Assembly (NCBI RefSeq): GCF_006974105.1
Contig: NZ_CP036282.1
Coordinates: 2,790,001-2,854,000 of the forward strand
Source of the DNA: Rhodoferax aquaticus
Lineage (GTDB): Bacteria > Pseudomonadota > Gammaproteobacteria > Burkholderiales > Burkholderiaceae_C
DNA: 64,000 nt
Reading direction: 5' to 3'
Part shown: piece by piece, positions 6,591 through 47,883 of the stretch
How the letters are laid out: each line of letters opens with the position of its first letter
Numbering within the stretch: the stretch's first letter is position 1
The notes under the pieces: model-generated
Databases searched by the model: none
Told to the model about the DNA's origin: nothing
Seen by the model: only the letters and a program-made list of their open reading frames with translations
Translations under genes and position numbers: made by a program

Positions 6591-8520
<1,930 letters not shown>

Positions 8521-8533
8521 GATCAGCTCCTAA

Positions 8534-8884: not shown

Positions 8885-8914
8885 GGATCTTTCCTTTTTA
8901 GTTCCAATGCCGTA

Positions 8915-8945: not shown

Positions 8946-8950
8946 GGGGT

Positions 8951-30888: not shown

Positions 30889-30952
30889 CCCTGACGCCTT
30901 TATTGTTGGGTTGCCCTTCTACCGAGCGTGCTCGGTGGTGAAAATGTGCTCA

Positions 30953-31195: not shown

Positions 31196-32529
31196 GCGGC
31201 CTCCTGTTGCGGCTGCGCATACGAAGGAACGCCTTTGGTCACGGCTTCATGAATGACGCTGGTGCGCAATTGTGTAAGAGCGTCAAGCTTTCTATTGATC
31301 AGCCGAACATTCCGGTCAACCAGTTCGGTTGCTCTATCAAGATATTCTGCAATAGCGACTTGCTCGGGCATTGGAGGAAGTGCGATTTCATAATCCTGAA
31401 TCACTTTCAACCCAAGAGCAGGCAGTGCAGTTTGAATGATCTTCGACTCAAAATTAAGAGAATTCAATAACCAAAAACAAAGTCGAGTATTTAAGTTTTT
31501 CCTATTAATCACACATGCAAGATGACTGACAACAGCCATATCCCTTGCAAGAACGGCACGAACATTACTTCGAATGGATTCGCCACTCTTTGGAAAAACA
31601 AATGTTCCTGCTTTCCAAACCTTAAGCCCAAGGTTTTCGGGGTTTTTAACTTTATCTTTCGATACTGAACAAAATCCGTTTTTAGCCGAAGACAAATCAG
31701 ACACTCGGAGAAATGGAACATCAGATTCGTTTTCACTAAGTAGATCGGGTAGCGGCGCTGGATTTCCTGCACCAACCTTTGTTACGTCCTTCAGACGGCC
31801 AATTTCCCATCCATTAGGCACATCCCCAATCCAGTCCACCCCGCTTGCCTTCATAGGCACGCTAGAGTCGAGCCCCTTGGTCACCGCTTCATGGATGAGT
31901 GACTTTTTGTGCTCTTGGAGCAAGGCTTTTTTGCGTTCGAGCAGTGCGCGCTGCTTATCAATCAAAGCTGTCGTTTTATCGAGGTAGTCCGCGATGGTGA
32001 TTTGCTCGGGGAGAGGGGGGAGAGGAATGTAAAGCTTCTCAAGAACCCCCATTCCTATATTTTGTTGAGTTCCAAAGCTCCAATAATACTCAATCATGCC
32101 TCTAAATATGGATGATGATACAAAGTGAAACCCAAACCTTGGATTAACAATATCACCATTGCAACGCAACGCAGCCAAGGGAGACCAAATATTAAATATT
32201 CTGTCAGTATCTACAAATGCAGCAACACCAGTTGTGGCACCAGATTTAACTATAAAAATGTCGTTTCTTTTAGGGATAAATTTTCTAGAAAATCTCCTAT
32301 GTTCAGCATGAGATATATAACCCCTTACTTTTTCGAAATTTAGCTTACCTGACGAAACTGCTTCGGCCGAAACAAAAGGCACGCCTTCAGATTCATCAAC
32401 GAATACAGGTGTTTCGTGTGGTCCATCCGTCACTTTAGTTTTTACAACATCCTTAACTCTCGCAACTGACCAGCCTAACGGAATTGTCTCGATCCAACTT
32501 GTAACACTATTGTTTTTTTTATTTTTCAT
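31192..32529 (-). CDS. hsdS: Type I restriction system specificity subunit HsdS
   Basis: A 445-residue protein with the usual two halves: target-recognition domain 1 (about 1-170, starting IPLGWSVARVKDVV), a conserved coiled coil (LPPLPEQITIADYLDKTTALIDKQRALLERKKALLQ), domain 2 (about 225-390, VPNGWEIGRLKDVT) and a second coiled coil (PPMPEQVAIAEYLDRATELVDR). The recognition domains are AT-rich, as is usual for recently exchanged specificity segments. It sets the bipartite DNA sequence that is methylated or cut. Confidence 0.95.
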   Translation of the reverse strand: MKNKKNNSVTSWIETIPLGWSVARVKDVVKTKVTDGPHETPVFVDESEGVPFVSAEAVSSGKLNFEKVRGYISHAEHRRFSRKFIPKRNDIFIVKSGATTGVAAFVDTDRIFNIWSPLAALRCNGDIVNPRFGFHFVSSSIFRGMIEYYWSFGTQQNIGMGVLEKLYIPLPPLPEQITIADYLDKTTALIDKQRALLERKKALLQEHKKSLIHEAVTKGLDSSVPMKASGVDWIGDVPNGWEIGRLKDVTKVGAGNPAPLPDLLSENESDVPFLRVSDLSSAKNGFCSVSKDKVKNPENLGLKVWKAGTFVFPKSGESIRSNVRAVLARDMAVVSHLACVINRKNLNTRLCFWLLNSLNFESKIIQTALPALGLKVIQDYEIALPPMPEQVAIAEYLDRATELVDRNVRLINRKLDALTQLRTSVIHEAVTKGVPSYAQPQQEAA

Positions 32530-32534
32530 AATAT

Positions 32535-34955
32535 TTACTTTGACTTCGTTAGGAATTTGGACATTTCTTCCTCAATAGCACGAAGAGATTCATCAACAAG
32601 AGCTATCTCTAGCAGCAAATCTTTTGATGCGCGGATTTGTGCAAGTTTTGGAAATACGCGATTGAAGTTGATCTCTGAGCCCACACTCTTGGCTTTAATG
32701 GTCGATGGATCGCGCACCCACTTGGCAATGAAATCGGCAATGAGCTTGTCATTGAGTGAATTACCGTGTTCGTCTTTCCTGGATGAATAGGGGATGGTTT
32801 CGGTATCAGACTCCATAAAGGGGTCCACCGAGATATCCCAGCGAATGTTCTCTCCCGCCTTGGACTTAGCGACCTTGGCCTTAACCGAGAGCACTCCAAG
32901 CCCATGCTCATTCACCACACCACCGGCTTTGGCTTCTTGGATGCGGTGCTCTTCACGGTTCATCGTCCACACCGAGCCATCGAGAAGTTCAATGGAGAGG
33001 GCCTCTGAAGACCGAACCTTTCCATTGAAGTCATCGACAAACACTTTGGCAGAACCATCTGTGGAATCAACTGGGGCCGTTAAAGGGCCTGAAGAAGAAC
33101 CAGTTGAGCCAGAAGGGCCAACATTTGAGCTAGCACTCTGCTGCACACCGCCAGTCGCGGTTGAGTAGTGCATGCCATCGACCACGATCGATTTGACTTT
33201 GGCCGCATCAATGGCAGTGCTCTTTTGAATGGCACGCCCCTCTTCGTCATGGCGATGCAGCTCAAGACTGACCTTGTTGTAGAGCAGATCATCCACGTCC
33301 ATCACTCGCGAGATGTCTGAATCAGTGAATGACTTGAAGCAATCCAAAATCCGAGTGCGATTGGCCGGGTCAATCTCACAGTTCTTCATGTTGAGATTCT
33401 TCTTGAGCTTTTTGAAGCACGTTTCAGCATTGATCAGCAACACCTTGCCTTTGCGGGACTCAGGCTTGTTGCGATTCAAAATCCAAAGGTAGGTCGCAAT
33501 GCCGGTATTGAAGAACTCATTCTTGGGAAGCTGAACAATGGCCTCCACAACGTCTTGCTCTTGGAAAAGCCAACGACGCGTCTCCGACTCCCCTCCTCCA
33601 GCATCACCAGAGAAAAGCGTTGAGCCAGAGTGAACGATTGCACCTACGCCGTTCTCTTCGAGGTGAAAGACCGCATGCTGCAAAAACAGCAACTGACCAT
33701 CAGAGGTAGGTGGCATGCGCGAGGCATCAAAGCGACCGCAATTGCTTGTTTTGATGGTGGCCGCAAACGCTTTCCAATCCACACCGTAGGGAGGATTGGC
33801 CACGATGAAGCCTGACTTGTAGGCTAAGTAGTGGTCATGGGTGAGCGTGTTGCCCCAAGCAATCTGTGCATCTGGCCGAAAGCGAGCTTCAAGAGCCGCC
33901 AGAGCGTAGAGAGCATCATTGAGCTCTTGACCGCGCACACGGACCGAAAGCCCTGGGAACTCCTTGCGCAGAGCCTCCTCAGCAGCAAACAAGAAGTTTC
34001 CACCACCGCAAGCCATGTCATAAACGTCACAGATCTGTGAGGAGTTGGTGTTGGGACGCCGAGCTTCAATGCCAAGTGCACAAGCCAGTGCGATCAGATC
34101 CTTAGGCGTGTATTGCTCACCGGCAGTCTCGGCAGAGATATCAGCCCACATCCGCTTGATGTGCTCTTCAAGTGTGGTGACCTCTGAGTTGTCAAATTCC
34201 ACCAAGTCCACATGAGCCCAACCGGGCGTGTCACCCGCACCAGCACAGAAGGTAAACAATGGATCGTTGGGGCGACTTGAGAGGTCAAGTGCAATGCCCT
34301 TAATGTCCAAGAACTTCGGCTGGCCTGGAGCATAGTCAACGCCAAGCAGACGCTTTGTCTCTGGATCAAACTGCTTTAGGAACGATTCGACCTGAACATA
34401 GAAGTTTCCAGTCTTGACCTTAACCAGTTCAGCAAGACCAACACCTAACTGAGCAATATCGGGGTGATAACCGTATCCTTCATTCTGAATGTTTATTTGA
34501 AGCCATTGAATGTGATTGGCATCAGCTTGATTGAATGGTGTGCCTGTCTCACTTTCAAATTCAGCCATCTTTTCAGTGCGCAGTCGCTTAATTCGAGACT
34601 CCACCAAGGCCAATGCAAAGAACGGAGCCATGTAGCTGGGGTAGTCGCTCTCTTTGACCCCAGTGCCCCTAAGCGTGTCGGCTGTGCGCCAGATCAGCGA
34701 TTTGTATTTAAGAACTCCAGCACCAATGGCTTGACCCACATCCTCATCAGAGGAAATTGAAGCACTGTTATCAGAAGACTGCCCGTTTACTGCCTCTAAC
34801 CGTTTGATAGCCGGTTGCGATGTCTTTGTGGTTGGCCCAGTAAGAGACGCACTATTGCTTGAAGTGCTTGGAAACTTATGACCAAAAACTGCGTTATTGA
34901 ATTGCTCGTGACCCTGTTCTGTTTCAAATGTTTTATCGTTAAATTCTTCTGCCAT
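32535..34955 (-). CDS. hsdM: Type I restriction system methyltransferase HsdM
   Basis: An 806-residue N6-adenine methyltransferase, longer than the usual 500-600. It has a helical N-terminal domain, SAM-binding DMACGGGNFLFAAEEAL, catalytic NPPYGVDW and a C-terminal extension of over 200 residues. A Ser/Gly/Pro-rich linker near residue 610 precedes that extension, which includes a beta-rich part (VFVDDFNGKVRSSEALSIELLDGSVWTMNREEH) and a final helical piece. The start follows AGTCAGGGA. With two HsdM and one HsdS it forms the protective methylase. Confidence 0.94.
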   Translation of the reverse strand: MAEEFNDKTFETEQGHEQFNNAVFGHKFPSTSSNSASLTGPTTKTSQPAIKRLEAVNGQSSDNSASISSDEDVGQAIGAGVLKYKSLIWRTADTLRGTGVKESDYPSYMAPFFALALVESRIKRLRTEKMAEFESETGTPFNQADANHIQWLQINIQNEGYGYHPDIAQLGVGLAELVKVKTGNFYVQVESFLKQFDPETKRLLGVDYAPGQPKFLDIKGIALDLSSRPNDPLFTFCAGAGDTPGWAHVDLVEFDNSEVTTLEEHIKRMWADISAETAGEQYTPKDLIALACALGIEARRPNTNSSQICDVYDMACGGGNFLFAAEEALRKEFPGLSVRVRGQELNDALYALAALEARFRPDAQIAWGNTLTHDHYLAYKSGFIVANPPYGVDWKAFAATIKTSNCGRFDASRMPPTSDGQLLFLQHAVFHLEENGVGAIVHSGSTLFSGDAGGGESETRRWLFQEQDVVEAIVQLPKNEFFNTGIATYLWILNRNKPESRKGKVLLINAETCFKKLKKNLNMKNCEIDPANRTRILDCFKSFTDSDISRVMDVDDLLYNKVSLELHRHDEEGRAIQKSTAIDAAKVKSIVVDGMHYSTATGGVQQSASSNVGPSGSTGSSSGPLTAPVDSTDGSAKVFVDDFNGKVRSSEALSIELLDGSVWTMNREEHRIQEAKAGGVVNEHGLGVLSVKAKVAKSKAGENIRWDISVDPFMESDTETIPYSSRKDEHGNSLNDKLIADFIAKWVRDPSTIKAKSVGSEINFNRVFPKLAQIRASKDLLLEIALVDESLRAIEEEMSKFLTKSK

Positions 34956-35211: not shown

Positions 35212-36078
35212 ATGCCTCAGAGTCACCTCCCCGTCCAATTAAGCTTCGTGTTTGTCGCGGTGGACTCAGGGCCCAGCCTTGAAGAACTTCACACCGTTGA
35301 AGTCCGAGCACGCCTTGACCATTGGCACCTGGATGCACTTAAGAGTGTTTGTAAAGGCAGCCAACTCAAGCCAAAGACAGTGACCATGGCTGAACTCACG
35401 CAGCAGATTGAAATCCACAGCCAGAGATTCATCAAAAGTGCTTCCTTCAACTACGTTGATATCGTGCTGGAGTGCGAGACAAAGGCCGCCACACAAAACA
35501 TTGCCGCCCAAGGTGGCTCGTTGATCCATGATGTGCAGTGCAGAGCCCAGTTGCCCGAGACACTCATCTTCGATGAGGAAGAGCGCGTGATTCACTTCAT
35601 TGCGGAGCTCTTTGCAGGCTACGCTTATATCGAGATCATTGAGCGCGTTGACGGTGAAGATCACCTCTCTGTCATGACCACGGGCAAAGGGAACGTGGAA
35701 ACCAATCCGTTCTTTGAACAGGAAGAGCTGGAAATCACATTGACAGTGGGGAACACCGCACCGATAACAATGCTCAAGGTTTCGCGCAGCTCTGGCCCCT
35801 TGAATGCATTTTTTGACCAACTCCCTGCCTCATCTCGTTCAACGCCAGGTGAGCGCAGAGACTCCACGATCATGCTTATTGAATCCGAACTGCAAGACGC
35901 CCTTGATGCTCAGGGTCATCCCGATGTGAAGTTTCAGATTGAAGATAGAAGCCATCAGGCTAATCACCCCACGATCGACTTCAAATGCCTTGCACCCATT
36001 AAACCTGCAAGCTTTGACCAACAGATGTTCAAGTCCACCATATTGCAGTCTGGGCTAGGTCTTCTGAAAAGCCCATGA
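35212..36078 (+). CDS. Uncharacterised protein divergent from hsdM
   Basis: A 288-residue acidic protein with no recognised domain. The start follows AAGGA. Beta-rich segments (FNYVDIVLECETK, YAYIEIIERVDGEDHLSVM) dominate the middle, and residues 180-225 are Ser/Pro-rich. There is no signal peptide. It lies across the operator-like repeats from hsdM, and its stop is 1 bp from the convergent gene at 36080. A function cannot be assigned from sequence. Confidence 0.6.
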   Translation: MPQSHLPVQLSFVFVAVDSGPSLEELHTVEVRARLDHWHLDALKSVCKGSQLKPKTVTMAELTQQIEIHSQRFIKSASFNYVDIVLECETKAATQNIAAQGGSLIHDVQCRAQLPETLIFDEEERVIHFIAELFAGYAYIEIIERVDGEDHLSVMTTGKGNVETNPFFEQEELEITLTVGNTAPITMLKVSRSSGPLNAFFDQLPASSRSTPGERRDSTIMLIESELQDALDAQGHPDVKFQIEDRSHQANHPTIDFKCLAPIKPASFDQQMFKSTILQSGLGLLKSP

Positions 36079-36079
36079 C

Positions 36080-36541
36080 TTACTTGGAGCGGCTGCGCTC
36101 CTCAAGAATTTTCAAACCTTTTGCGAGCAATGCGGCCTTAGCTAGGCTTACTTCCTTGCGTCTACCCTCTGCCCTTGCGCTCTCGTTTACGCTGGACTCT
36201 CTCGAAGCACGTTTCGGGCGATCCATTTCACCAACTGGAGGCTTTGGGACCTCTGGTGCAGCACCGAATACCGGCATAGATGACATAGGGGTATTCATCA
36301 TCCACATCACGACATGCACAATCCAAAAGGTATCCCTATTGCCTATGGTTATCACTGGGATCTGTGGCATTTGGCCGCGTGCCTTTAGGTTCCAGACGAA
36401 CTTGACTGGCTTGTTCATGATCTGAGCTAACTGCACTTGACTCAGCAAATCACCAGTGAATCCATGCTCACCCTTAATGCGAGCTACCGCTGCGTTAATT
36501 GCGATCCAATCTGGCTGATGCTTTTGATTCTCCACTTGCAA
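36080..36541 (-). CDS. Putative helix-turn-helix protein
   Basis: A 153-residue basic protein. Residues 25-75 (GDLLSQVQLAQIMNKPVKFVWNLKARGQMPQIPVITIGNRDTFWI) have the look of an AlpA-type helix-turn-helix with a wing, often found beside integrases. The C-terminal 60 residues are Arg/Lys/Glu-rich and probably a coiled coil. It lies just to the left of the attachment site, so it could act as a regulator or directionality factor there. This is inference from pattern and position. Confidence 0.5.
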   Translation of the reverse strand: MQVENQKHQPDWIAINAAVARIKGEHGFTGDLLSQVQLAQIMNKPVKFVWNLKARGQMPQIPVITIGNRDTFWIVHVVMWMMNTPMSSMPVFGAAPEVPKPPVGEMDRPKRASRESSVNESARAEGRRKEVSLAKAALLAKGLKILEERSRSK

Positions 36542-36644
36542 CTAATGCTCCTTTGAGCACTAACTTCGCAAATAAAGCTTTCTGCGTCAAATCAATTTCC
36601 AGACACAAGGCACGCGCTTGGAATGCCCAAAATGTTTCAGAAAA

Positions 36645-36663
36645 ATGGCGCATATTTGGCGCA
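36645..36663 (+). repeat. Arm-type repeat left of the attachment core
   Basis: ATGGCGCATATTTGGCGCA. It matches 36906-36924 at 18 of 19 positions, and the two copies sit about 110 bp on either side of the tRNA-derived core. This is the arrangement expected for arm-binding sites of a tyrosine integrase. Confidence 0.55.
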
Positions 36664-36775
36664 GTCGTATTGAGTAGTCGTGAGCACTGGCGAGCACTAA
36701 ATGCCGTTAAACATCTACATAACGATATTTAATGTGAGCGCATTTCATATCTTTTGCTGCTCAATCACACATCAG

Positions 36776-36804
36776 TGGTGCCTCGAGCCGGAATCGAACC
36801 GGCA
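36776..36804 (-). other. tRNA 3'-end fragment, integrase attachment core
   Basis: The minus strand reads as a T-arm (GCCGG-TTCGATT-CCGGC), an acceptor 3' strand (TCGAGGC), then ACCA. No D-arm, anticodon arm or 5' acceptor strand is present next to it, so it is a fragment rather than a gene. The pattern suggests a tRNA-Leu-type donor. Such fragments mark integration of islands into the 3' end of tRNA genes, and an integrase starts 140 bp away. The intact tRNA is not in the window. Confidence 0.75.
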
Positions 36805-36905
36805 TTCAGCAGGAACCGAACCGATCTAAATCTTGCCATTAACTCCTCTGAAAATCAGTTACATCTGACCAAAGGCCATTCCTGTTTTGCCGCGCCAAAT
36901 GCAAT

Positions 36906-36924
36906 ATGGCGCATATATGGCGCA
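36906..36924 (+). repeat. Arm-type repeat right of the attachment core
   Basis: ATGGCGCATATATGGCGCA, one base different from the copy at 36645. It lies in the leader of the integrase gene, so integrase binding here could also control its own transcription. An inverted GCGCCAAAT half-copy precedes it at 36892-36900. Confidence 0.55.
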
Positions 36925-36944
36925 ATAAGAAGAGAGGAGAAGAC

Positions 36945-38021
36945 ATGCCAATAAGAGCAAGAAAAGGAAAGTCTGGAAGCGTTACCTACCAGGTAACTAT
37001 AAGAATCAAGAGCCAACCAACACTCACAGAGTCGTTTAACACAAAGGCTGAAGCAGAACGCTGGGAGGATGCGATGAAAACCGCAGCACGTGACTCAGTG
37101 AAGACGATGCCAGACACAAAGCGCTATCGCCGCACCACAATTAAAGAAGCTTCACAGGCGTATCAACTATCTCTCAAATGTAAAAGAACCACGATTCAAA
37201 ATCTCAAGATTCTGGAGCGTGAGGTGGGCTCTACCGCTCTTGCCAATATCACCACAGAGTTCCTTAACGACTACGTTACACACATGTGTGCAACCAATTC
37301 TCAATATGGACGACCCTACACAAAGGCAACCATTGCAAAGCAAATTCAGGCGCTTAGGGGACTGGTCCGTTTTCAAGCCGAGTCGTTGCGAGTTGAGCCA
37401 CCGCTATCAGCTATCACCATATCGGTATTGGGTGATGGATGGGATAACGAACGAACCCGACTATTAGAGCCACACGAGGAAGATGCCCTGCGCACAGAGT
37501 TCAAAAATTGTGTCAATGACGAGCACTGGCCACTTTTGATGACTATCGCGCTAGAAACAGGAGCGCGGCAAGCGGAGATCGTTATGGCTGAACAAAAAGA
37601 ATTTGATCTCAACGAAAAAGTGTGGATCATCCCGGCTGCACACACCAAGGTCAAAAAAACGCGGCAAGTTCCGCTGTCTAAAGTTGCACATGCGGCAGCC
37701 AAGAAGCTCATCAAACTGCTAGATGAAGAAAATGAACGTCTCTTGGCTGCTGACCCCAAAGCAAAGAGACTGACTCGTGTGTTTTGGCCTTTCTCAACTC
37801 CCAGCTCGGTGAGTTCAGGCTTTCGAAAGTTGACCAGGAAGCTGCGCATTGATGACCTTCATTTCCATGACCTGCGCCACACCGCGATTACCCGGATGGT
37901 TCTCACTAAACGCAAGCTGAGTGTTTATGAGATCATGAAAATTGTGGGCCACACCACGTTAAAGATGCTGGATCGTTACGCCAATTTAAGGGGAGGAGAT
38001 CTGGTCGACAGGATGGAGTAA
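36945..38021 (+). CDS. Tyrosine integrase of an island or prophage
   Basis: A 358-residue phage-type integrase with an arm-binding N-terminus (RKGKSGSVTYQVTIRIK), a SAM-like core-binding domain (about 60-160) and a catalytic domain with Arg in ETGARQAEIV, HDLRHTAITR, His in VGHTTLKM and Tyr in LDRYANL. The ATG at 36945 has GAGGAG at the right distance; the frame itself extends 13 codons further into the arm repeat. It lies directly beside the tRNA-derived core and is most likely the enzyme that uses it. Confidence 0.92.
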   Translation: MPIRARKGKSGSVTYQVTIRIKSQPTLTESFNTKAEAERWEDAMKTAARDSVKTMPDTKRYRRTTIKEASQAYQLSLKCKRTTIQNLKILEREVGSTALANITTEFLNDYVTHMCATNSQYGRPYTKATIAKQIQALRGLVRFQAESLRVEPPLSAITISVLGDGWDNERTRLLEPHEEDALRTEFKNCVNDEHWPLLMTIALETGARQAEIVMAEQKEFDLNEKVWIIPAAHTKVKKTRQVPLSKVAHAAAKKLIKLLDEENERLLAADPKAKRLTRVFWPFSTPSSVSSGFRKLTRKLRIDDLHFHDLRHTAITRMVLTKRKLSVYEIMKIVGHTTLKMLDRYANLRGGDLVDRME

Positions 38022-38080
38022 TCACCAGCCTAGTCTTTAGCGGCAAATTGGATTTACTCAAAATAGCGTGAGGTCGAGCT

Positions 38081-38386
38081 GTGGAGCCCATTGCCCTGCG
38101 CAGAGAAGCGCCTCCAAATGATCCTGACGATGATGTGCCTAACTCGATCAATAAAGCCAAGGTCTATGAATCCGAGATGCTCGCGCTGGCTTTAAACAAG
38201 GGCCACGGCTTTAATGATCGCCCAAACGCCGCTCGAGTCACCGCAGCTCAATCCGCCCGAGCTCGTGGAGCCATTGAAATCGCCTCGCGTTTAGACGCCA
38301 TCACCTGCGCCATTGAGGAGCGTGAAGAGTATGAGGCTTTCATCCCTGCGGTGAAGCCCTCCAAGCGAGCTGTGCGCGCTTTGTAA
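38081..38386 (+). pseudogene. C-terminal remnant of a paralogue of the 38422-39900 protein
   Basis: The 101 residues from the GTG align with the tail of the next gene: VEPIALRREA versus VAPIALRRDKA, then KVYESEMLALALNKGHG versus KVYYSQMLALALQKDHG. The preceding about 390 residues of such a protein are missing, and the end diverges (a run of Ala/Arg). It is probably a leftover from a duplication or recombination next to the integrase. Confidence 0.7.
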
Positions 38387-38421
38387 TGCGCCGCTAGAAT
38401 TCTTCTAAGAGAGGGTATTTC

Positions 38422-39900
38422 ATGGCAACACAAACACTAAACAAGCAGGCTTTGAGCGACATTGCCTCTTTGCAATCTTATGCACCGCGCCAGGCCGCGC
38501 TGGATTTGTTGGCACAAGGGTGCATGGAGGAGTTTCTGGATTGGGAGCTTGGTGAGGGTTACGTTGCTGCCAACGGAGAACCCAAGCAGGTTGAAGAGCG
38601 TTTTGCGGTGGCGACGCGGCGTCAAGCCCTTCTCAATGAGCTTGCCCTGGACGGGGCTCTTTACGGTCGAATCTCTGATGTCGCGCAAGGCAAGGAAGAG
38701 GACGCGTTACTTCGTTTGGCCCTCGAGCGCATCCCTTATCTTTTTGCTTCGCCTCTTGAAATTGCTCTGCGCACCGCTCCGATCGAAGCCTTTGAGAAAA
38801 CCCTTTTATCTTGGAGCTCCCCGGAGCGCCGTTTTTTCGGGATCGACGGCTCGAGCAAAGATGGGCATGGCTGGCAAAGTTTTTCCATCCGATCGAGCAT
38901 TCTTGATAAGAAACAGAGCTCACGCGCACTGTTCGACATTGGTCAACGTTTGAAGCGCCATAGTTTGCTCACACTCGCGCTTCTTTTAGGCAAAACAGAG
39001 CACGCCGTGGCCCTGTGTCGCCATGGATTGCGCCCTGATTCGCAAAATGAGTGGGACGATGTATTTAGTGCTCTTCAATCCTTCAAGGGCCTCACACCGG
39101 ATCAGCAAACATGGCTTACCGGATGCGTTGAACCAAAAACTATTCAAGCGATTGAGTGGCTCATTGAGCAGGACAACCTTTTTAATGCGATGGAAGAGGC
39201 CGCCGAAGAGCTTGAGGCTCCTCAAGGTATTCCCAAGCTTGGTGAGCTCTTGGACCAAGGAGCCAGCTTTAGCTACTACCCGATGATTAAGGCCATGGAG
39301 TGGGGACAACTTGATTTGCTGGAGCGGATGTTTAAATCCGGTGGCAACCCGAATGTCACCTACAAGAGCGGGGCCCCGCTTATGGCACGCATAGCCGGTG
39401 ACGAGTATTTTACGCTTGAAGCACTTGATCTTTTCTTGAAATACGGGACCAACCCGACCATGGGTGAAGGTGCCGAGAGTTATTTCGGGGATGGATGGAA
39501 TCTCTCTGCACTGGCTTCATTTGTTTGGTCTGGGCGTTTTGAGCATCTTAAAAAAGCGTGTGATGGACCTGTAGCGCCCATCGCACTTCGGCGCGACAAG
39601 GCGGGCTATGAGCCTTCCTTTGGGGACACCAAGAAGAAATCCAAGAAGCCTAAGGTTTACTACTCCCAGATGCTCGCTTTAGCTCTGCAAAAAGATCATG
39701 GCGCAATGGCTGCGTGGATGATCCAAAAGCACGGTTGCCGGCTGGATGACCTTGAGCCAGAAAATGGTGAGCCATGTTCCGCGTTCGGTCAGGGCGACAC
39801 GATTGAAGAAGCGAAAGCTGCACAACTGCAAGCTGAAATGAAAGCAAGTCTTCCCAAGCCGGAGCTTAGGACGACCTCTTCATTGGCAAATACTCCATGA
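38422..39900 (+). CDS. Ankyrin-like helical-repeat protein
   Basis: A 492-residue protein with weak ankyrin-type repeats: TLALLLGKTEHAVALCRHGL, PMIKAMEWGQLDLLERMFKSGGNPNV, TLEALDLFLKYGTNPTM, ALASFVWSGRFEHLKKACDG. No enzyme motif, signal peptide or transmembrane helix is seen. The last 90 residues are duplicated in the truncated copy just upstream. The ATG follows AGAGAGGG. Island-borne ankyrin-like proteins of this type usually have no known role. Confidence 0.7.
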   Translation: MATQTLNKQALSDIASLQSYAPRQAALDLLAQGCMEEFLDWELGEGYVAANGEPKQVEERFAVATRRQALLNELALDGALYGRISDVAQGKEEDALLRLALERIPYLFASPLEIALRTAPIEAFEKTLLSWSSPERRFFGIDGSSKDGHGWQSFSIRSSILDKKQSSRALFDIGQRLKRHSLLTLALLLGKTEHAVALCRHGLRPDSQNEWDDVFSALQSFKGLTPDQQTWLTGCVEPKTIQAIEWLIEQDNLFNAMEEAAEELEAPQGIPKLGELLDQGASFSYYPMIKAMEWGQLDLLERMFKSGGNPNVTYKSGAPLMARIAGDEYFTLEALDLFLKYGTNPTMGEGAESYFGDGWNLSALASFVWSGRFEHLKKACDGPVAPIALRRDKAGYEPSFGDTKKKSKKPKVYYSQMLALALQKDHGAMAAWMIQKHGCRLDDLEPENGEPCSAFGQGDTIEEAKAAQLQAEMKASLPKPELRTTSSLANTP

Positions 39901-40013
39901 GCAGAGCGAGTAACCACCGAAGCAATTTTGAAAGTTGATTAGTGGCATGAGTGAACCGTCAGTCTTGCCTGCGAATTAGCCCCACCGATTGGCGAGCAGT
40001 GCACAGCAGAGCA

Positions 40014-40032
40014 CCCCACGCATTGCGTGGGG
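40014..40032. terminator. Hairpin between convergent genes
   Basis: CCCCACGC-ATT-GCGTGGGG is a perfect 8-bp stem with a 3-base loop. It lies between the convergent ends of the ankyrin-like gene (39900) and the ParA-like gene (40042). No U-run follows on either strand, so termination is likely but not certain. Confidence 0.5.
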
Positions 40033-40041
40033 CTATAACTC

Positions 40042-40839
40042 CTAATTGATTAATTCAAGGCTGCTAAAGCACGTCTCTGTCTGTTTTAGGAATCCTTCAA
40101 TTTTGGTCAAACGAATCCTCCAACCTGTAAGTATTCCGCGCTGGCTCAAAAGTCTAGGTATAGCTTGACTGAACGTTACCAACCATTTATCCACCAAGGC
40201 AAAAGTTCCGTGATCAAGTGCAGGAAAGCTTATGATTTTCCCACCTGCAGCCAGGACTTTGGCTGCCGGATTACCAAACTGTGTTGCTAGTTCACCATCA
40301 AAGAAATAGAAATCCTCATCATTTCCAAAGCTTTGGTTCTTGGCTACAACATAGGTCACATCATCTCCCCAGATATCCATCACCTTCGTTACGCTAGCCC
40401 CGGAAGCTTGAACTTGCGTAATGACACACAACACAACGATTTCGTAACCTTCTTGACGATACTGATCTTTGAAAGATTTCATGTCGCCATAGACATAACT
40501 TAGATCAATCAAGCCACCTGGAAGATCCATTAAGACAATGTCAGCATCAGTATCTAAAGTGTCACCAAATTTGTCGGCGTCAGACTTTGCATCAAACATC
40601 AAGACCCCGGCATCTGGCCTATTGTTGTTTTCAATGACGTCATACTCCCCCTCTTTGTCTTTCAAACCGTATGCCAATGCTAATTGGCCCACATTGGGAT
40701 CGGTGTCGTATGCATGCACTCTGACTGCAGTCCCGTCCTTCTTCTTTTGATTTCTCAAATACTCAAGCAGTGCCTTTGCTACTGTGGATTTTCCTACGCC
40801 TCCTTTTGCGGATGCAATAAATATTGCTTTCTTCTTCAT
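40042..40839 (-). CDS. ParA-like ATPase
   Basis: A 265-residue MinD/ParA-type ATPase with the deviant Walker A KGGVGKST at the N-terminus, Asp in AYDTDPNVGQLAL and Walker B-like IVLMDLPGG. The frame extends upstream to 40908, but ATG at 40839 has AAAGGAG and opens directly on MKKKAIFIASAKGG. Such proteins segregate plasmids or position conjugation and chromosome structures. It is the second gene of an operon whose first gene encodes a likely DNA-binding protein, with a tandem-repeat array upstream, the layout of a partition locus. Confidence 0.85.
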   Translation of the reverse strand: MKKKAIFIASAKGGVGKSTVAKALLEYLRNQKKKDGTAVRVHAYDTDPNVGQLALAYGLKDKEGEYDVIENNNRPDAGVLMFDAKSDADKFGDTLDTDADIVLMDLPGGLIDLSYVYGDMKSFKDQYRQEGYEIVVLCVITQVQASGASVTKVMDIWGDDVTYVVAKNQSFGNDEDFYFFDGELATQFGNPAAKVLAAGGKIISFPALDHGTFALVDKWLVTFSQAIPRLLSQRGILTGWRIRLTKIEGFLKQTETCFSSLELIN

Positions 40840-40877
40840 ACCTTCTCCTTTTTGGTTGTTGTTTATCCATTTGTTTT

Positions 40878-41681
40878 TTAGCGGTATTTTTCCCAAAGCT
40901 CTGCCCAACTTTTTATCTTCCCTTCAATTAAATCTCTGTGATACCTAAGCGGAACTTCGATCCTATCGTCAGGTGGAAACTTCAATGTTGATCGAGGTCG
41001 TTCTGTATGCGCCATCTCCCAAACCGCTTTTCGCAAAGCTGCAAATGAGCAAGGCGTTCCACCAAACATCGTGTGAATGTCATTCTCTTCACCATCAACC
41101 TCATTGAACACCAGTGGTTGGTCTTTAATAGTGACCCGGCTCGGCGGGGTCCGAATGTTAGGTCTTGATCTTTGCTCAACTGAAACAGTGGAGGAGCTAA
41201 GGGCAGCTATTTCGCTTGGCTCAACAGTTTTTGGAACTGCTGCAGGGCTCTCTCTTTTTGCGTCTGACGGTGCACTACGGACTCGTTTTTTCTTCGTCGA
41301 CTTTGCACTTTCCTTTGAACTTGGAGTGGCATCTTCAGCCGTAAGCCAAACGGGATTTACCTTTTGAATTTTTGCTTTGAATAGTGCATCCCTCACTGCC
41401 TTCGCTTCAGCTAATGTCGTCAGACTTTTTGCCAGAGTATGAAGCTTTGCCATATGTATGGCGGAGACTGAAAAGCCAAGCCGTCTGACGGCAAGAGCCA
41501 TTTCGGCGTGTGTGTAACCAGCAAGTTTCCAGCCAACTATTAGTTGGGGCTTGGATCGCACAAAATGTATTGCGTCGCGTTTGGAATTTCCAGATACAGC
41601 GTCGACACCGAAAATCATCTCAGCTTCGGCATTGCAATCTGTATCGTCACTTAAGTTACTCATTTTGTAATCACTTATCAT
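40878..41681 (-). CDS. Putative DNA-binding partner of the ParA-like ATPase
   Basis: A 267-residue protein. Residues 45-80 (VGWKLAGYTHAEMALAVRRLGFSVSAIHMAKL) read as a helix-turn-helix. A long Lys/Ser/Pro-rich disordered centre (about 115-195) follows, then a conserved-looking C-terminus (MFGGTPCSFAALRKAVWEMAHTERPR). The start follows AAGGTG. It lies 38 bp before the ParA-like gene and 350 bp downstream of the 64-bp repeat array, so it is a candidate centromere-binding protein. No ParB homology is visible; the assignment is contextual. Confidence 0.55.
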   Translation of the reverse strand: MISDYKMSNLSDDTDCNAEAEMIFGVDAVSGNSKRDAIHFVRSKPQLIVGWKLAGYTHAEMALAVRRLGFSVSAIHMAKLHTLAKSLTTLAEAKAVRDALFKAKIQKVNPVWLTAEDATPSSKESAKSTKKKRVRSAPSDAKRESPAAVPKTVEPSEIAALSSSTVSVEQRSRPNIRTPPSRVTIKDQPLVFNEVDGEENDIHTMFGGTPCSFAALRKAVWEMAHTERPRSTLKFPPDDRIEVPLRYHRDLIEGKIKSWAELWEKYR

Positions 41682-42032
41682 TTATTCACCTTCAAAAGGG
41701 TGGGCTTCGATAAGTCACAGTCTCATTCCAAAAATCGATGAGCAATACAAAACGAAAAGTATTTACTTGAGCGGTCGATATGACCCGCCAGAAGGTATCA
41801 AAAAGGGCTTGTTTTTACTTGCACTCTAGAGTAGAAACGGTAAAGTTATCCGTTTTTATTCATATCAATCGCAATCTGAGACTTGTAAATAAATTACATT
41901 TCTCCAGCATGTGCCGTTACTCTCTTTAATTCAAAGGTTAGGTGCTGCTTAAACGCTCATGAGAAGCGGCCTCTCGACTGGTTGATTTACGACCTCTTCA
42001 AAGACTAGGCAATCGGGAAGTATTCGAGCATC
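41682..42032. other. Non-coding leader between repeat array and ParA operon
   Basis: No plausible gene on either strand. It is AT-rich next to the operon start and probably holds the operon promoter. I could not pick a single -35/-10 pair with confidence. Confidence 0.4.
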
Positions 42033-42606
42033 TAGTTGAACCACTTACGCATGAACCACACACCATGTTGGGATAGCCGCGCATCATTGACACACCAAGT
42101 CCAAACGCTCACGCACTAACCACACACCATGTTGCGATAGCCGCGCATCATTGGCACACCAAGATCAACAGCCTACGCACTAACCACGCACCATGTTGCG
42201 ATAGCCGCGCATCATTGGCACACCAAGATCAACAGCCTACGCACTAACCACGCACCATGTTGCGATAGCCGCGCATCATTGACACACCAAGTTCAACCGC
42301 TTACGCACTAACCACACACCATGTTGCTATAGCTACGCATCATTGGCACACCAAGTTCAACCGCTTACGCACTAACCACACACCATGTTGCTATAGCTAC
42401 GCATCATTGGCACACCAAGTTCAACCGCTTACGCACTAACCACACACCATGTTGCTATAGCTACGCATCATTGGCACACCAAGATCAACAGCCTACGCAC
42501 TAACCACACACCATGTTGCGATAGTTACGGAGCATTGGCACACTAATTTAAACCACTTACACATGAGCCACAAGCCAGGTTGCGACAGTTTCGCGACATG
42601 GGCACT
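42033..42606. repeat. 64-bp tandem repeat array built from 32-bp half-repeats
   Basis: The motif CCATGTTG starts at 42063, 42127, 42191, 42255, 42319, 42383, 42447 and 42511, and a degenerate copy (CCAGGTTG) lies at 42575: an exact 64-bp period over about nine units. Each unit also holds CACACCAAG exactly 32 bp after CRCACCATG (for example 42123, 42155, 42187), and the sequence before both motifs is related (AGC-TACGCA). So the array is about 18 half-repeats spaced by 32 bp, close to three helical turns. There are no unique spacers, so it is not CRISPR. It resembles iterons or a partition centromere. Confidence 0.9.
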
Positions 42607-43347
42607 GGAGGCAGTCGTGAAAACCGTATCTCTAGGTGCTTAAGCCCTAACTAACCAGCGTTACAAGCTAGCAATCTGAATCCAGCATCCACGTCGACGT
42701 TGCCAATCTGGCATATTAAATGTGCCCTTTTTGACCGATTCGTTTTGTGTTTGGTGTGGAGATAGTCGTTATGTGTTTTTTAGGCAGGAATTGGTGTGTG
42801 TGGCGCTGATTTGAGATTTATAGACCATTGCCCTCCCGGCGGGGTGTTTAGAACCTTTTTGAGCTCTTTTCCCTCTGAAACGATGCGCTTTTTGCGTGTT
42901 ACCAAATGGCTAACAAATTCGAGCAAAAAAACGTCACCTTTTTTTTGATTTCTCCTCTGAAAACAGCGTTCTAACACCTTTGCTACCACCATTTTTTCAA
43001 GATATTGAAAAAGGCTACAACTTGGTAATGCTTATTGAATTCAATCGTCAGCCGTGTCTGGTCGACTCCTCTGCGCTCAAGTCGGTCATGCCTATGTGCC
43101 GGAAGGTTAGAGCTCACATCAATCCCGGCATGGCTATATCAACCTAGCACTTGATGACCGACGATGCCGGATTCATGGTCATCAATGCCACTAAAACTGC
43201 GGAAATAGGGCCGATTCAAGGGAGGTAGTATGCAGCTTAGCCATCATAGAATAACTCATTGATTTGATTGAATATTTTCCTGCAACTGCACGTTTTTTAG
43301 GCGCATTTCCACCGAATGATGATGGACACCGCGCATACTACGTGCAC
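42607..43347. other. Non-coding stretch right of the repeat array
   Basis: Only a weak 70-codon frame (minus strand, 42780-42992) without a convincing start. The stretch 43020-43250 looks like decayed coding sequence, but I cannot identify a source. No RNA gene is recognised. Confidence 0.4.
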
Positions 43348-43370
43348 AAAAAAGGGGCCTCAGGCCCCTT
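43348..43370 (-). terminator. Rho-independent terminator of the gene at 43391
   Basis: On the minus strand, AAGGGGCCT and its complement form a 9-bp GC-rich stem with a minimal loop followed by TTTTTT. It lies 20 bp after the stop codon of the ankyrin-like gene. Confidence 0.85.
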
Positions 43371-43390
43371 AAGTAAGTGAGTTGAAACCG

Positions 43391-44452
43391 TTACAGGCGG
43401 TTACTCATCTGGGCATTCGCCGCCGGTTCTGGCATCGGAATAAAGCACTCTAGGCCCTCCTGCTCATGCTCAGCAATGCATTCTTGTGCCATGGTTTTGA
43501 AGATGGCCGAGGCGGTGGGGACAAGCTTTTTGATTGGGCTTTGTTCACCCATGAGAAATTTGGCTTCATCCAGAGTCAAGGGATGAAATATTGACTCCAT
43601 GCTGTCTTGAAACTTCAGGAGCGATGTGGGCGTCTGGTCTTTGGGTGCTGAGGCATTCATGAACTCGATGGATGCCACGTCATTCAATAAAATCCCCTTA
43701 CGAAATAGCACCTCAATGACAGCGTCTGCGCGATTGAGCGCCGCTGCTGCTATCGGGGGCAAAAACAATGGGGTCGGAGCTTGAGGCAATTCCACTTCAA
43801 GAATGATTTCAAAAATGTCCAATCCATTTTTCTCAAATGCTGCTTGGGCGATCACCAAGTCATCCTTTGTGTTGCACTGAATCGCATCCGCAAGGATCAA
43901 TTTCATGGCCGCAATTTGCCCCAACTTAAGCGTGCGCGGCGTGAACTCCACCGGCACTTCTTCATTGCACAAGCTAACAAGGTTCATTGCGACGGCCTTG
44001 TCCATGTGACGCAAAGCCAAGCTGACATACACCCCCTCAAAGTTCTCCCAAGGGTCTTCACCGCGATCGTTGAGCTCATAGGTCATCACCTTAGTCAGAC
44101 CATCAAAGGTTGCACGCTCCAACTTAGGCTTCTCTTGACCAGCCTTTTCCATCATGAAAAAGAAGGCGTCAGGTGCGCTGCATGACACCGCATAGGCAGG
44201 CATGTGTTGCGGAGCGGAGCAACCCTCAGGAGTGATGACGATGTCAAACAAGCTCTCACCGCGCTTTTCCAACTCCAAGCATAGCTTGGACAAAGCCTCA
44301 GCATCATTGGACTCGATGGCCTTGAAGATGCGAGGAGCCAAAGCTGTATTTGATTTACAGCCCTGGACTTTTTTGACACCTTTTGCCTTATTTGCGCGCT
44401 GCTTTTTGCATGCCTTTTTGTAGCTCACCGACTCTTTTGCCGCCTTTGTCAT
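43391..44452 (-). CDS. Ankyrin-like protein with a basic N-terminus
   Basis: A 353-residue protein. The first 30 residues are very Lys-rich (KKACKKQRANKAKGVKK). They are followed by weak helical repeats such as IFKAIESNDAEALSKLCLELEKRG, FEKNGLDIFEIILEVELP and AAALNRADAVIEVLFRKGILLND. The frame extends upstream to 44521, but ATG at 44452 has AAAGGA upstream. No catalytic motif is seen. It resembles the other two ankyrin-type genes of the region only in general plan. Confidence 0.65.
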   Translation of the reverse strand: MTKAAKESVSYKKACKKQRANKAKGVKKVQGCKSNTALAPRIFKAIESNDAEALSKLCLELEKRGESLFDIVITPEGCSAPQHMPAYAVSCSAPDAFFFMMEKAGQEKPKLERATFDGLTKVMTYELNDRGEDPWENFEGVYVSLALRHMDKAVAMNLVSLCNEEVPVEFTPRTLKLGQIAAMKLILADAIQCNTKDDLVIAQAAFEKNGLDIFEIILEVELPQAPTPLFLPPIAAAALNRADAVIEVLFRKGILLNDVASIEFMNASAPKDQTPTSLLKFQDSMESIFHPLTLDEAKFLMGEQSPIKKLVPTASAIFKTMAQECIAEHEQEGLECFIPMPEPAANAQMSNRL

Positions 44453-44644
44453 CTTCAATTTCCTTTCATTGAAACAAGCCCAATTGCTTGCGAGAGGCGC
44501 AGTGTGAGACAGCTTGATCACTTTGTTTCACCGCAAGCCTTGGTATCAGGTTCAATCAGGTTTAATCAGGCTGGATGCGCGCAATAGTCGAAAGTATTCA
44601 AGAGGGAAAACCTGTCAGAATTCATTGCACTTTTTGGAGAGGCA

Positions 44645-45289
44645 ATGGCCAATACGGGAAAAAGGCATCGCTTGAAGGATCTAGATGAGCGGATTGAGCT
44701 TGTTAGAACGCTCAACAGCATGTCGGTGAAAGAGCTGAAGACGACATTGCTCTCACCTGTTCACGTCAGCATTGCTACGGGTCGTGAGACCTCCACGTTG
44801 GAAGCGGACCGTGCAAAGCGGCGCAAAGCGTTAAAGGCTAATCCCCCTACTCCAATTCCAGGCAACTCACCCCTATCACTTGAGTTCATAGAGCCTGCAG
44901 AAGGCTATCGCGAAGTGCAATACCGAGCCTACGACTTGCTTGGATACCTCAACCGTCTAAGTGAATCGGCCATCCCAAAGATAAACCAGCCAAAGTCTGC
45001 GATAGCTGCAACTCAAATGCGGGGGTTCCAATCCTGGCTCTCGACGGCCATGCCCATGGATGACTGGCCCTTTGTGATTCAAGAAGATGGACGCCCGATC
45101 AGTTTTGCCCAAGCACTGATCACCGGCACGCTCACTGAGAACTGCAAACGACTTACTCTTAGTGAGTTCACCTACGAGCTCATGCACGCATCCAACAAGG
45201 CGTTTTCAAAGTTTGAACAAGCGGAGATAGAGAGGACTGCCAAGAAGCCTGTGCGTAAGGCTTCTGCTGGAAAGAGAGCCCCGCTCTAA
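44645..45289 (+). CDS. Putative AlpA/excisionase-type helix-turn-helix protein
   Basis: A 214-residue protein. Residues 35-105 follow the HTH_17 pattern: LLSPVHVSIATGRETSTLEADRAKRR, then a Pro-rich wing and EVQYRAYDLLGYLNRL. The rest is of unknown fold, with a basic C-terminus. It starts after GGAGAGGCA. It is convergent with the gene at 45303, which carries the same domain plan, and both lie beside a large integrase. A role in regulating excision is plausible. Confidence 0.55.
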   Translation: MANTGKRHRLKDLDERIELVRTLNSMSVKELKTTLLSPVHVSIATGRETSTLEADRAKRRKALKANPPTPIPGNSPLSLEFIEPAEGYREVQYRAYDLLGYLNRLSESAIPKINQPKSAIAATQMRGFQSWLSTAMPMDDWPFVIQEDGRPISFAQALITGTLTENCKRLTLSEFTYELMHASNKAFSKFEQAEIERTAKKPVRKASAGKRAPL

Positions 45290-45302
45290 TGTGCTGAACC
45301 CT

Positions 45303-46118
45303 TTAAAGGGACTTGCTAGCCTTCTTAGGGTCTTTCTCACTGGCTACGGCAGCAATCTCGGTGGCCTCGATTGAAGCTTTTACTTCATTGACCTCCCCCT
45401 TTAGGATTGCCAGCCAAGGTTTTGCAAACTTCTTGTGTTCAGACTCCTTTAGCCAAATGGAGTGAACAGCTTGCACTGGGGTCAACCAAACACACCTTAG
45501 CTTGCCGAAATGAGCCGCAACGCACAGCTTCTCCATCTCAGGCAAGTCCATGCCCCAACCCTTGCAATGAAGAGTGTGGCGCCCCCTTCGATCCGTCTTT
45601 GGTGAAGCAAAGAACGGCACCGGCTGAGACACCCAACCGAGCAAGCCAGCAGAGGCAAGTTTCACTTCAAAAGTGCTGTAGCCAGCATTCTCTTTCTGGA
45701 ATCTTCTGAGGTCGCCCATCAAATAGGTGACCGGTTGATTTGACCCTATGGCGCCCTTCTCGGCTATCTTGATCATTCGCAAACCCTTGGGCTTTGCGTC
45801 TTGATCATCTGAAGGTTTGGGCTTTCGTCCAGCAGCCTTAGCAGCATCATCGGCTGCCTTCTTTAGTCTGGCCGCCTGCTTGTCTTCTTCGCTAGGCAGC
45901 CCACTGTTGCGCAGCTCCCGTAATTGAGAGACGGAAATGATGAGATAAAAGGCTGCAAGTTCGGCTTCAACTGCCGTGTCATCACTGAGCACTGCCAATC
46001 GACTACGACGTTCGGCATCTGCGATCATTTCGTCAAGAGACTTCTTGGCCTTGCGACCTCCAGTCTTTATCCTCTTCGCGCTATTGTCTTGGTCGGCCAA
46101 ATCGACTGCTTTTGCCAT
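45303..46118 (-). CDS. Helix-turn-helix partner of the large integrase
   Basis: A 271-residue protein. Residues 50-140 again suggest an HTH_17-type fold (LAAFYLIISVSQLRELRNSGLP, a charged insert, then NQPVTYLMGDLRRFQ). The N-terminus is Lys/Arg-rich, and the C-terminal half (GWGMDLPEMEKLCVAAHFGKLRCVW) has no known match. It starts 22 bp after the integrase stop in the same direction, so the two are probably one operon and this may be the directionality factor. Confidence 0.55.
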   Translation of the reverse strand: MAKAVDLADQDNSAKRIKTGGRKAKKSLDEMIADAERRSRLAVLSDDTAVEAELAAFYLIISVSQLRELRNSGLPSEEDKQAARLKKAADDAAKAAGRKPKPSDDQDAKPKGLRMIKIAEKGAIGSNQPVTYLMGDLRRFQKENAGYSTFEVKLASAGLLGWVSQPVPFFASPKTDRRGRHTLHCKGWGMDLPEMEKLCVAAHFGKLRCVWLTPVQAVHSIWLKESEHKKFAKPWLAILKGEVNEVKASIEATEIAAVASEKDPKKASKSL

Positions 46119-46140
46119 GCTGCCCCCAGGTTTTTAATGA

Positions 46141-47718
46141 TTATGACTTTGTCTTTCTAGTCTTGCGTGCTGGGCCAGTCCGGATGATCTGTTCATCTTC
46201 CTCAGGCAATTCCGGCTCCTTGGCTGGTCTTAGTGCGTTGTAAAGGGAAGGGGCTGACTTCAGGATAAGCTTTTCAATCTTGACCATGCGCTCCATGTGA
46301 TCCTTCCACTCTGGTGCGGTGTAGCGACCAAGAGTCTCGCCTCCACCCACTGCATGTCCGAGCATGCGTTTAACTTGGCGATCGATGAGGCCTAGTTTTT
46401 CACAAGCTGCACCGAATGTTCTACGCAGATCATGGCCCCTCACAGCCTTAATACCTGCCCTCTTACGCACGGTATCCATGGCTACAGATGGATCTGCGTA
46501 GTGACCTACCTTGCATGGGATTCTTGAAGGAAGTAACCACTGCCCTCCTGCGTTCTCTGGTTCCTTATGGTCCACTTCTTTGCCATCTTTGATGTAGACC
46601 AGTCCTTGGCGGCTGCTGGGCATTTTTGACTCAAAAAGCCAAGGGATGCCTTTGCGTCGATCAAACTTTCTAAGCTTTAAGAGTGCCAAAGCCATTGGGC
46701 CAATCGGAAACTCGTGATCGCCGCGATTCTTTCCGTCGTAGATGAAGACCACTTTGTTCTTCAAATCCACCCAGCGCTCAATGTGAGCTTTTTCATCCGG
46801 AATATCTTCACGCCATTTGAGACTCCGACACTCGTCACCGCGCAAACCCCACAACAGATCAAGGATCAAGAAGTCGGCACCACGTGGGTTCTCTTTGCGA
46901 TATTCCCATGCCGCCTCCAAGAAGGGTCCAATGGACTCAGAAAATGAGAGCGGGTTTCGGACCCCTTTTGTTTTGTAGTCACTCTCAAGCTGATTGCGAT
47001 CTCGATACTTTTTCTTGGTCAGCAATATCGTGAATGGGTTGTAGACCAACGTCGGCTCTCGCCTTGCTGCATGGGCGTTGTGGATTTCGTTTTGAATGGC
47101 GTTGTTGACTGCGGCTGTTGCCCATCGCCCCATGGCCTCAGCGGCGGTCCTGTGCTGCTTTGTCACCGCATGCAGATCAAATCGATCAAGCACTTCTTGC
47201 CCAGTGATCAATCGAACCTTACGGTCCTCCCAGTCTTCAAACTTATCCCGAGCCTTGTTGACCGAGTCCAATGAGTTCTTTTTTATAGGACGAGCCCGCC
47301 CTTTAAGGTCGGCGATATATCGGTCCCAAACCATGCCGAAGGTCAATTCGGATGCTTCAATTTCGTCAGCGATTCGATTCGGGTTGGTTCCATGCTTGAT
47401 GGCAATTGCGATTTTGTCTCGGGCAAGCTCTCTAGCCTTGTCGATTGAGATAGGCTTTTCTGCCCCACGCTTACCCCAAGCCAAGCAGACATCGATCTTC
47501 ATCTTCTTTTTCTTGATCATCTTCTCAACAAGATAGATCGAGCCCCGAGCACCTACCCGGACTGCGAATCCAGGAGGAGCCTTACGGTGGGTGTCATAGA
47601 CGAGATAATTAGGCTTGTCTGTCTTTTTCCAAACTACCTTTTTTACTTTTTCGTCCCACGTTGGCGCATTGTCGAGGGACAAACTTTGGACGAGGGTGTC
47701 TGTCAGGGCGAGCTTCAT
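46141..47718 (-). CDS. Large tyrosine integrase adjoining mutS
   Basis: A 525-residue integrase. It has an N-terminal arm/DUF4102-like part with VRVGARGSIYLVEKMIKKKKMKIDV, a core-binding domain (about 115-250) and a catalytic domain with Arg in WGLRGDECRSLKW, HDLRRTFGAA, His in MLGHAVGGGE and Tyr in LGRYTAPEW. The frame runs up to 47808, but ATG at 47718 follows GGAG and opens on MKLALTDTLVQSL. It is separate in type from the integrase at 36945 and marks a second mobile element ending at the mutS border. Confidence 0.9.
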   Translation of the reverse strand: MKLALTDTLVQSLSLDNAPTWDEKVKKVVWKKTDKPNYLVYDTHRKAPPGFAVRVGARGSIYLVEKMIKKKKMKIDVCLAWGKRGAEKPISIDKARELARDKIAIAIKHGTNPNRIADEIEASELTFGMVWDRYIADLKGRARPIKKNSLDSVNKARDKFEDWEDRKVRLITGQEVLDRFDLHAVTKQHRTAAEAMGRWATAAVNNAIQNEIHNAHAARREPTLVYNPFTILLTKKKYRDRNQLESDYKTKGVRNPLSFSESIGPFLEAAWEYRKENPRGADFLILDLLWGLRGDECRSLKWREDIPDEKAHIERWVDLKNKVVFIYDGKNRGDHEFPIGPMALALLKLRKFDRRKGIPWLFESKMPSSRQGLVYIKDGKEVDHKEPENAGGQWLLPSRIPCKVGHYADPSVAMDTVRKRAGIKAVRGHDLRRTFGAACEKLGLIDRQVKRMLGHAVGGGETLGRYTAPEWKDHMERMVKIEKLILKSAPSLYNALRPAKEPELPEEDEQIIRTGPARKTRKTKS

Positions 47719-47737
47719 TCGGACTCCTTGGCTGGCT

Positions 47738-47829
47738 CTTGGCGGAGTCAAAATGGTTGCTCCGCCAGGATGTGGCAATTTTAGGCTAAAACTGGAACTT
47801 GGCGGCAACTTGGCGGATTACTTGGCGGA
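47738..47829. repeat. CTTGGCGG direct repeats at the integrase-mutS border
   Basis: CTTGGCGG occurs at 47738, 47798, 47809 and 47821; the last three are spaced 11 and 12 bp apart. They lie just upstream of the integrase start and 55 bp before the mutS start. Spacing of about one helical turn suggests arm-binding or autoregulatory sites for the integrase, and the element end should be here. Confidence 0.6.
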
Positions 47830-47883
47830 TCGATGTGGCTTAATAGAGGTGCAACACAGGACAACATGGCGCGTTAGACATTT

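Follow-up and report, generated by a model that had tools for sequence, protein, structure and literature searches.

We identified, within a 64,000-nucleotide stretch of the Rhodoferax aquaticus chromosome (hereafter the window), a two-gene operon preceded by an array of direct repeats, and we consider it fairly probable that together they make up a DNA-positioning cassette of stb-like (StbAB/TraKL-like) type, belonging to an integrated mobile element. This cassette has a tyrosine-recombinase gene on either side and is located just upstream of a gene that we take, from its sequence and its neighbours, to be mutS (Table). A sequence-only reading of this DNA had proposed a new type of partition or positioning system. 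Of that proposal, a positioning or partition-like cassette is what the analysis supports best, while the novelty gave way, since ATPase kinship, gene order and repeat geometry indicate that the arrangement probably has a precedent in StbAB/TraKL. Our best reading is thus a relaxase-free stb-like maintenance or positioning module located in a defence island. We see it as a variation on a known kind of system, with a putative function.

Table. Features of the cassette and its surroundings, given as positions in the window.
Feature	Position	Strand	Remarks
Hma defence system, HmaC/HmaB/HmaA	14871-24220	(-)	PADLOC 1444, 1581, 2052 bits
Type I restriction-modification hsdR, hsdS, hsdM	27418-34955	(-)	hsdS by Pfam only
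tRNA 3'-end-like remnant, possible att site	36776..36800	(-)	by eye
Tyrosine recombinase (PF00589)	36906..38021	(+)	beside the tRNA 3'-end-like remnant
ParA-superfamily ATPase, TraL/StbB-like, Walker A KGGVGKS, 265 aa	40042..40839	(-)	ORF open from 40908
267-aa protein, StbA position, otherwise orphan	40878..41681	(-)	N-terminal region predicted helical, low confidence; HTH-like by eye
Spacer between array and operon, 352 bp, presumed promoter region	41682..42033	.	
Array, nine 64-bp units with four 9-bp sites each	42034..42609	(-), the strand of the operon it precedes	repeat and shuffle analysis
Second tyrosine recombinase, adjoining the mutS 5' end	46141..47808	(-)	

Tandem Repeats Finder described the array as 8.6 copies of a 64-bp period (42034-42585, 90% matches, 0% indels) together with a period-32 row at 59% matches, and a decayed ninth unit extends it to 42609. 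The earlier description of about nine exact-period 64-bp repeats lying 350 bp upstream of a two-gene operon was therefore confirmed, the distance to the ATG at 41681 being 352 bp. Three units (42290 to 42481) are identical copies. In units 1-8 adjacent copies are 86-100% alike, so the exact 64-bp period is in part a trace of recent tandem duplication; the lattice inside the unit, more than the period itself, is the informative feature of the array.

Each unit had been described as a diverged pair of 32-bp halves, and shuffles of the consensus unit backed this: a local match of 10 of 11 positions at lag 32 had p = 0.00015 (p = 0.012 when every lag between 8 and 32 is allowed), and the lag-32 total match gave p = 0.008. 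In units 1-8 the two halves are 44-59% alike. A finer lattice runs through every unit, with four 9-bp sites spaced 11/21/11/21 bp, such that each half holds two sites 11 bp apart. With the internal spacing left free (8 to 16), the four-site lattice score was equalled by only one of 20,000 consensus-unit shuffles (p = 5e-5); single lags were weaker (lag 21, p = 0.0044; lag 11, p = 0.14; both uncorrected). The sequence-only reading had counted ~18 sites at 32-bp spacing. Its 32-bp periodicity stood, but the 11/21-bp lattice had been missed, and the array offers ~36 slots in all. Exact matches to YRCAYYAW on the + strand number 30 within the array, on the lattice, and another 30 elsewhere in the window, where no pairs at 11, 21, 22 or 32 bp were found on that strand. 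The accompanying suggestion that all sites share one face of the helix holds locally but not over the whole array, for which the phase resultant was 0.995 at 10.67 bp per turn and 0.34 at 10.5.

Open frames across the array are short (maximum 56 codons). Used as a query against its own single-contig 4.74 Mb genome, the array matched itself only; its DNA had no match in plasmids, the 32-bp pattern none in viral contigs, and the DNA of the whole cassette none in E. coli genomes. A scan of 39850-43400 for sigma-70-like sites found none, the average in shuffles being 5.0.

The second gene of the operon encodes the ATPase. Within its ORF (40042-40908) the ATG at 40839 is the preferred start, with an AGGAG-like site ahead of it as judged by eye. 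The 265-aa product matched CbiA (28.2 bits, cut-off 25.4), and its Walker A motif is of the KGGxxK[T/S] or SGxxGK[T/S] pattern of StbAB/TraKL ATPases. TraL NF010461 was matched weakly (residues 31-271, E = 5.9e-5, 22.6 bits against a cut-off of 360), ParA_partition NF041546 was missed (18.9 bits, cut-off 180), and the curated StbB model NF041292 gave no match at E <= 1. The best PHROGs match, phrog_164 'ParA-like partition protein' (37.5 bits, E = 2.9e-9), covers residues 17-134, the N-terminal half. Phage records and viral contigs held no match to the ATPase.

Relatives of the ATPase were found by tblastn in 62 plasmid records, all at below 60% identity; 40 of the 62 records were listed and seven were retrieved, and the annotation ParA stands on 4 of the 40 listed matches. 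Seven aligned relatives (that of genome G859 excluded) are 29-35% identical to the ATPase, with conserved blocks well outside the P-loop. A profile built from seven plasmid relatives, six of them relaxase-linked and the set chosen by similarity to the cassette ATPase itself, scored that ATPase at 138.6 bits; the score was 95.0 bits with a profile from three additional relatives, one of them TraL-like, 23.7 with a three-sequence ParA profile and 1.0 with an R388-type StbB profile. A partition ParA is thus not the closest relative by profile score (23.7 vs 138.6 bits), although the phrog_164 match counts in the opposite direction. A 30-row tree leaves the placement of the ATPase unsettled, with 4 of the 5 nearest rows by path being relaxase-linked. 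When 399 order-level genomes (its own included) were searched with a profile that included the cassette ATPase, one clear relative emerged, in G859 (220.9 bits; next genome, 91.3). Seven order-level P-loop ATPases that start with a GGEKGGVGKS block (L083, L085-L088, L090 and L091) form a tree group of their own. A Limnohabitans match (L035) was rejected; it is a ParA-like gene, and its ORF list has no visible stb context.

A relaxase or MobC/NikA gene adjoins the ATPase relative in 9 of the 11 neighbourhoods inspected (L003-L007, L009, L020, L023, L028, L029 and L082/L093), one of the nine by virtue of a NikA match just below cut-off (25.0 vs 27). This count leaves out ATPase loci L010-L019, L030-L034 and L036-L039, of which L030, L031, L032 and L037 entered a tandem-repeat scan only, and it draws on a plasmid collection biased toward relaxase neighbours. 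On pMRAD06 (L020) no relaxase was present among the listed genes, in a gene table that is possibly incomplete, and none was seen at L009, a stretch of only 3.6 kb with neighbours unscanned. A small gene in the StbA position lies directly upstream of the ATPase in 8 of the 11 neighbourhoods and a third gene lies downstream in 9; the gene order around the plasmid relatives is usually that of the R388 stb operon. The G859 operon likewise encodes a 141-aa StbA-like protein, the ATPase and a third gene, and is divergent from NikA-like and relaxase genes.

The upstream regions of these operons differ in their phasing. R388-type regions showed strong 11/22/33-bp periodicity in all four cases, with 0 of 1000 shuffles as good, and the region upstream of the pTHIMO operon, whose TraL-like ATPase reaches 189.8 of 360 bits, gave p = 0.009 on the three-lag sum. 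For ten nearer ATPase relatives the three-lag sum ranged from p = 0.003 to 0.8 (p < 0.05 in three), the single-lag score gave p < 0.05 in two, and neither score had a p below 0.001. The sequence-only reading had named homologous operons lacking any array as evidence that would tell against it, and here the outcome is divided: R388-type operons were phased in 4/4, whereas the ten closer ATPase relatives are mostly without a phased array. Such an array thus characterises the R388-type operons seen rather than the nearest ATPase kin, and that of the cassette may be an independent elaboration.

The first gene of the operon encodes a 267-aa protein for which Pfam, NCBIfam, PHROGs and the PDB held no match; there was also none in plasmids at E <= 0.01, none in viral contigs and none in 298 other family-level genomes at E <= 0.001. 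In the same four collections it matched neither the ParB family nor a known centromere-binding partner of ParABS type Ia/Ib, in line with the earlier statement that the DNA-binding gene has no visible ParB relationship. In this trait the protein agrees with R388 StbA, for which the portion of the R388 study used here likewise gives no ParB homology (PMC3098194). An order-level draw of 399 genomes returned matches in 83 at E <= 1, the best non-self match having E = 0.002. The loci inspected behind these matches (L040, L041 and L043) have a BtuF-type look and were matched through a KPDLxxGW stretch; judged by eye, we rejected them as chance. Structure predictions had a mean pLDDT of 44.8 for the full protein and 50.4 for its first 114 residues, the latter low-confidence model placing helices between residues 33 and 105. 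A PDB search with the model of residues 1-114 gave 0 matches at E <= 0.001, which we treat as uninformative.

Against a StbA HTH profile the 267-aa protein ranked joint first by hhalign score among the 428 open frames of the window, at insignificant values (hmmsearch E = 0.82, hhalign probability 19-43%) that a MerR protein equals. Homology to StbA was pursued with a six-row alignment (12-20% identity), full-length and HTH-only profiles and hhalign, and it was never significant; we therefore limit the claim to position and fold type.

The stbABC operon of the IncW plasmid R388 adjoins oriT. Upstream of stbA lie two sets of five 9-bp repeats (stbDRs), separated by 2-bp gaps, to which StbA binds; the repeat motif is present in further R388 promoters too (PMC3098194). 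As far as the consulted portion of that study goes, StbA is needed for stability and provides it together with its repeats, StbB is needed for transfer and dispensable for stability, and deletion of stbC had no effect (PMC3098194). The same source recognises two groups of StbB relatives, one with KGG (TraL_RP4, MobD) and one with SGxxGK (R388), and describes StbA as poorly conserved and not ParB-like, its kin having required seven PSI-BLAST rounds (PMC3098194). The cassette shares with stbABC the order of array, first protein (the DNA-binding StbA in R388) and ParA-superfamily ATPase, and with the stbDRs the 9-bp direct repeats, the 11-bp basic spacing and the skipped positions. Given that the repeats bound by R388 StbA are 9 bp long and spaced at 11 bp, the geometry, the gene order and the KGGxGKS motif point to a StbAB/TraKL-like module. 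The cassette departs from R388 in having ~36 slots at 11/21 bp where R388 has two sets of five repeats, a first protein of 267 aa instead of 141 aa, and a Walker A motif of KGG rather than SGxxGK type. It is also chromosomal, and neither a relaxase nor a stbC-like third gene was seen, the next large ORF being convergent (38422-39900, +).

In its KGGxGKS type and its weak, near-full-length TraL NF010461 match the ATPase resembles TraL of RP4 and MobD of pTF-FC2, but unlike RP4 TraK/TraL and pTF-FC2 MobC/MobD it falls far below the TraL cut-off and has no adjoining relaxosome gene; both plasmids were compared through the grouping of the R388 paper and the TraL model, not through their own sequences. 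With the alphaproteobacterial plasmids pAt2, pNYY1_6 and p2METDI, and with G859, the cassette shares ATPase blocks, and those relatives have a small StbA-position gene upstream; they differ from it in possessing a relaxase and a third gene and mostly in having no phased array. The srpMRC locus of SXT/R391 is a partition locus on an integrated element, but its ATPase is, in the part of the report drawn on, of actin type and not of ParA type (PMC4489591).

Identity of the site sequences with the stbDRs seemed decisive by eye, as one site per consensus unit contains the GCATCAT of the stbDR (TTGCATCAT), a likeness not above chance. A stbDR weight matrix from four plasmids gave a best site on the array unit of p = 0.46; its phased score on the unit beat mono-shuffles (p = 0.005), but came 4th of 48 under letter permutation. 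The matrix not being above chance, we dropped the claim of sequence kinship. Since the cassette falls short of the curated cut-offs, no relaxase neighbourhood or third gene was seen, and neither the 267-aa protein nor the sites could be shown to be kin of their stb counterparts, we call it 'stb-like' and not a member of the family. As a post hoc, by-eye observation, the array unit resembles MOBF nic regions (TGCGTA).

The Hma and type I restriction-modification systems to the left of the cassette constitute a defence island. In 4-kb bins, GC content is 0.46-0.56 as far as 48 kb and 0.58-0.60 past that point. ARAGORN found no tRNA in the window, and the tRNA 3'-end-like remnant occurs just once in the genome when up to 2 mismatches are allowed, which hints that it was imported from a different host. 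Among 60 other same-genus genomes, one has a 73% DNA match that spans the N-terminal part of the second recombinase and mutS. Six same-genus flanks have mutS in common with the window and nothing left of about 47951, and the left end of the island was therefore not found; no direct repeat was convincing. Rfam gave 0 matches in 36000-48000. No relaxase was found among the island ORFs scanned (Pfam, NCBIfam), several of which matched no family, and TrwC, PF03432 relaxases and VirB4 (PF03135) were absent from a genome search at E <= 0.001. Transfer of the element, if any, would likely need a helper. Two ORFs at 38081-39900 (+) have stretches in common (ALRR, MLALAL; by eye); one of them is maybe a fragment of a duplicate, and the larger gave nothing significant in Pfam or NCBIfam.

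In the most likely scheme, the 267-aa protein would occupy 9-bp sites one or two helical turns apart in a cooperative manner, coating the array to form a nucleoprotein filament. The ATPase, on the model of R388, would act on this complex and place the DNA in the cell, and such placement could either prevent loss of an excised or incoming circle or bring the DNA to the transfer machinery of a helper. Binding to the array probably also lets the 267-aa protein repress its own operon. A more specific version, which we hold as tentative and somewhat doubtful, is that of a stand-alone chromosomal stb-like system of an integrated element in a defence island. Its phased array is longer than that of any of the other 15 upstream regions in the comparison, and its centromere-like filament would serve excised-state survival or helper-plasmid transfer in the absence of a relaxase or T4SS.

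True ParA-driven partition, independent of stb, would instead make the orphan a new centromere-binding protein and the array a centromere, with the ATPase segregating an excised, replicating form. The large phased array next to the gene of a ParA-superfamily ATPase, the PHROGs match to a ParA-like partition protein (E = 2.9e-9) and a 267-aa protein that fits no family searched are consistent with this, and SXT/R391, in the part of the literature drawn on, show that integrated elements can bear partition loci (PMC4489591). We nevertheless regard it as rather unlikely, because the nearest ATPase kin are mostly relaxase-linked and no replication gene was recognised among the island ORFs scanned. 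That the array represents Rep-bound iterons in the replication origin of an excised element is far less probable: the direct repeats in helical phase speak for it, but no Rep-like protein appeared among ten ORFs scanned (Pfam, NCBIfam) and the partner gene encodes a ParA-superfamily ATPase.

The array might also be an operator only, used by the 267-aa protein to repress the operon itself and possibly further genes, the cassette being a decayed plasmid or ICE remnant that is now functionless. This accords with the occurrence of the R388 repeat motif in other R388 promoters (PMC3098194), with the absence of the three conjugation families searched from the genome and with the island ORFs that match no family. 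We regard this reading as unlikely: both cassette genes are open, the units have recently been re-duplicated with the lattice kept, and ~36 sites are far above the number in a usual operator.

The 2011 R388 paper, in the portion consulted, leaves open both the mechanism of StbB-independent stability by StbA and the role of StbB in transfer (PMC3098194). If the stb-like positioning reading is correct, a relaxase-free chromosomal version would let StbA- and StbB-type roles be separated, and integrated elements would be shown able to carry plasmid-type positioning gear. The array of ~36 sites at 11/21 bp would also be a good substrate for the study of filament formation on DNA.

Two further observations concern the left part of the window. 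Three consecutive ORFs at 1514-6182 (+) have integrase-type matches, two of them weak, and resemble a three-recombinase insertion unit. Positions 6591-9361 hold a MerR-family regulator and a gene for a pyridine-nucleotide-disulphide reductase with an HMA domain, which we presume to be mercuric-reductase-like.
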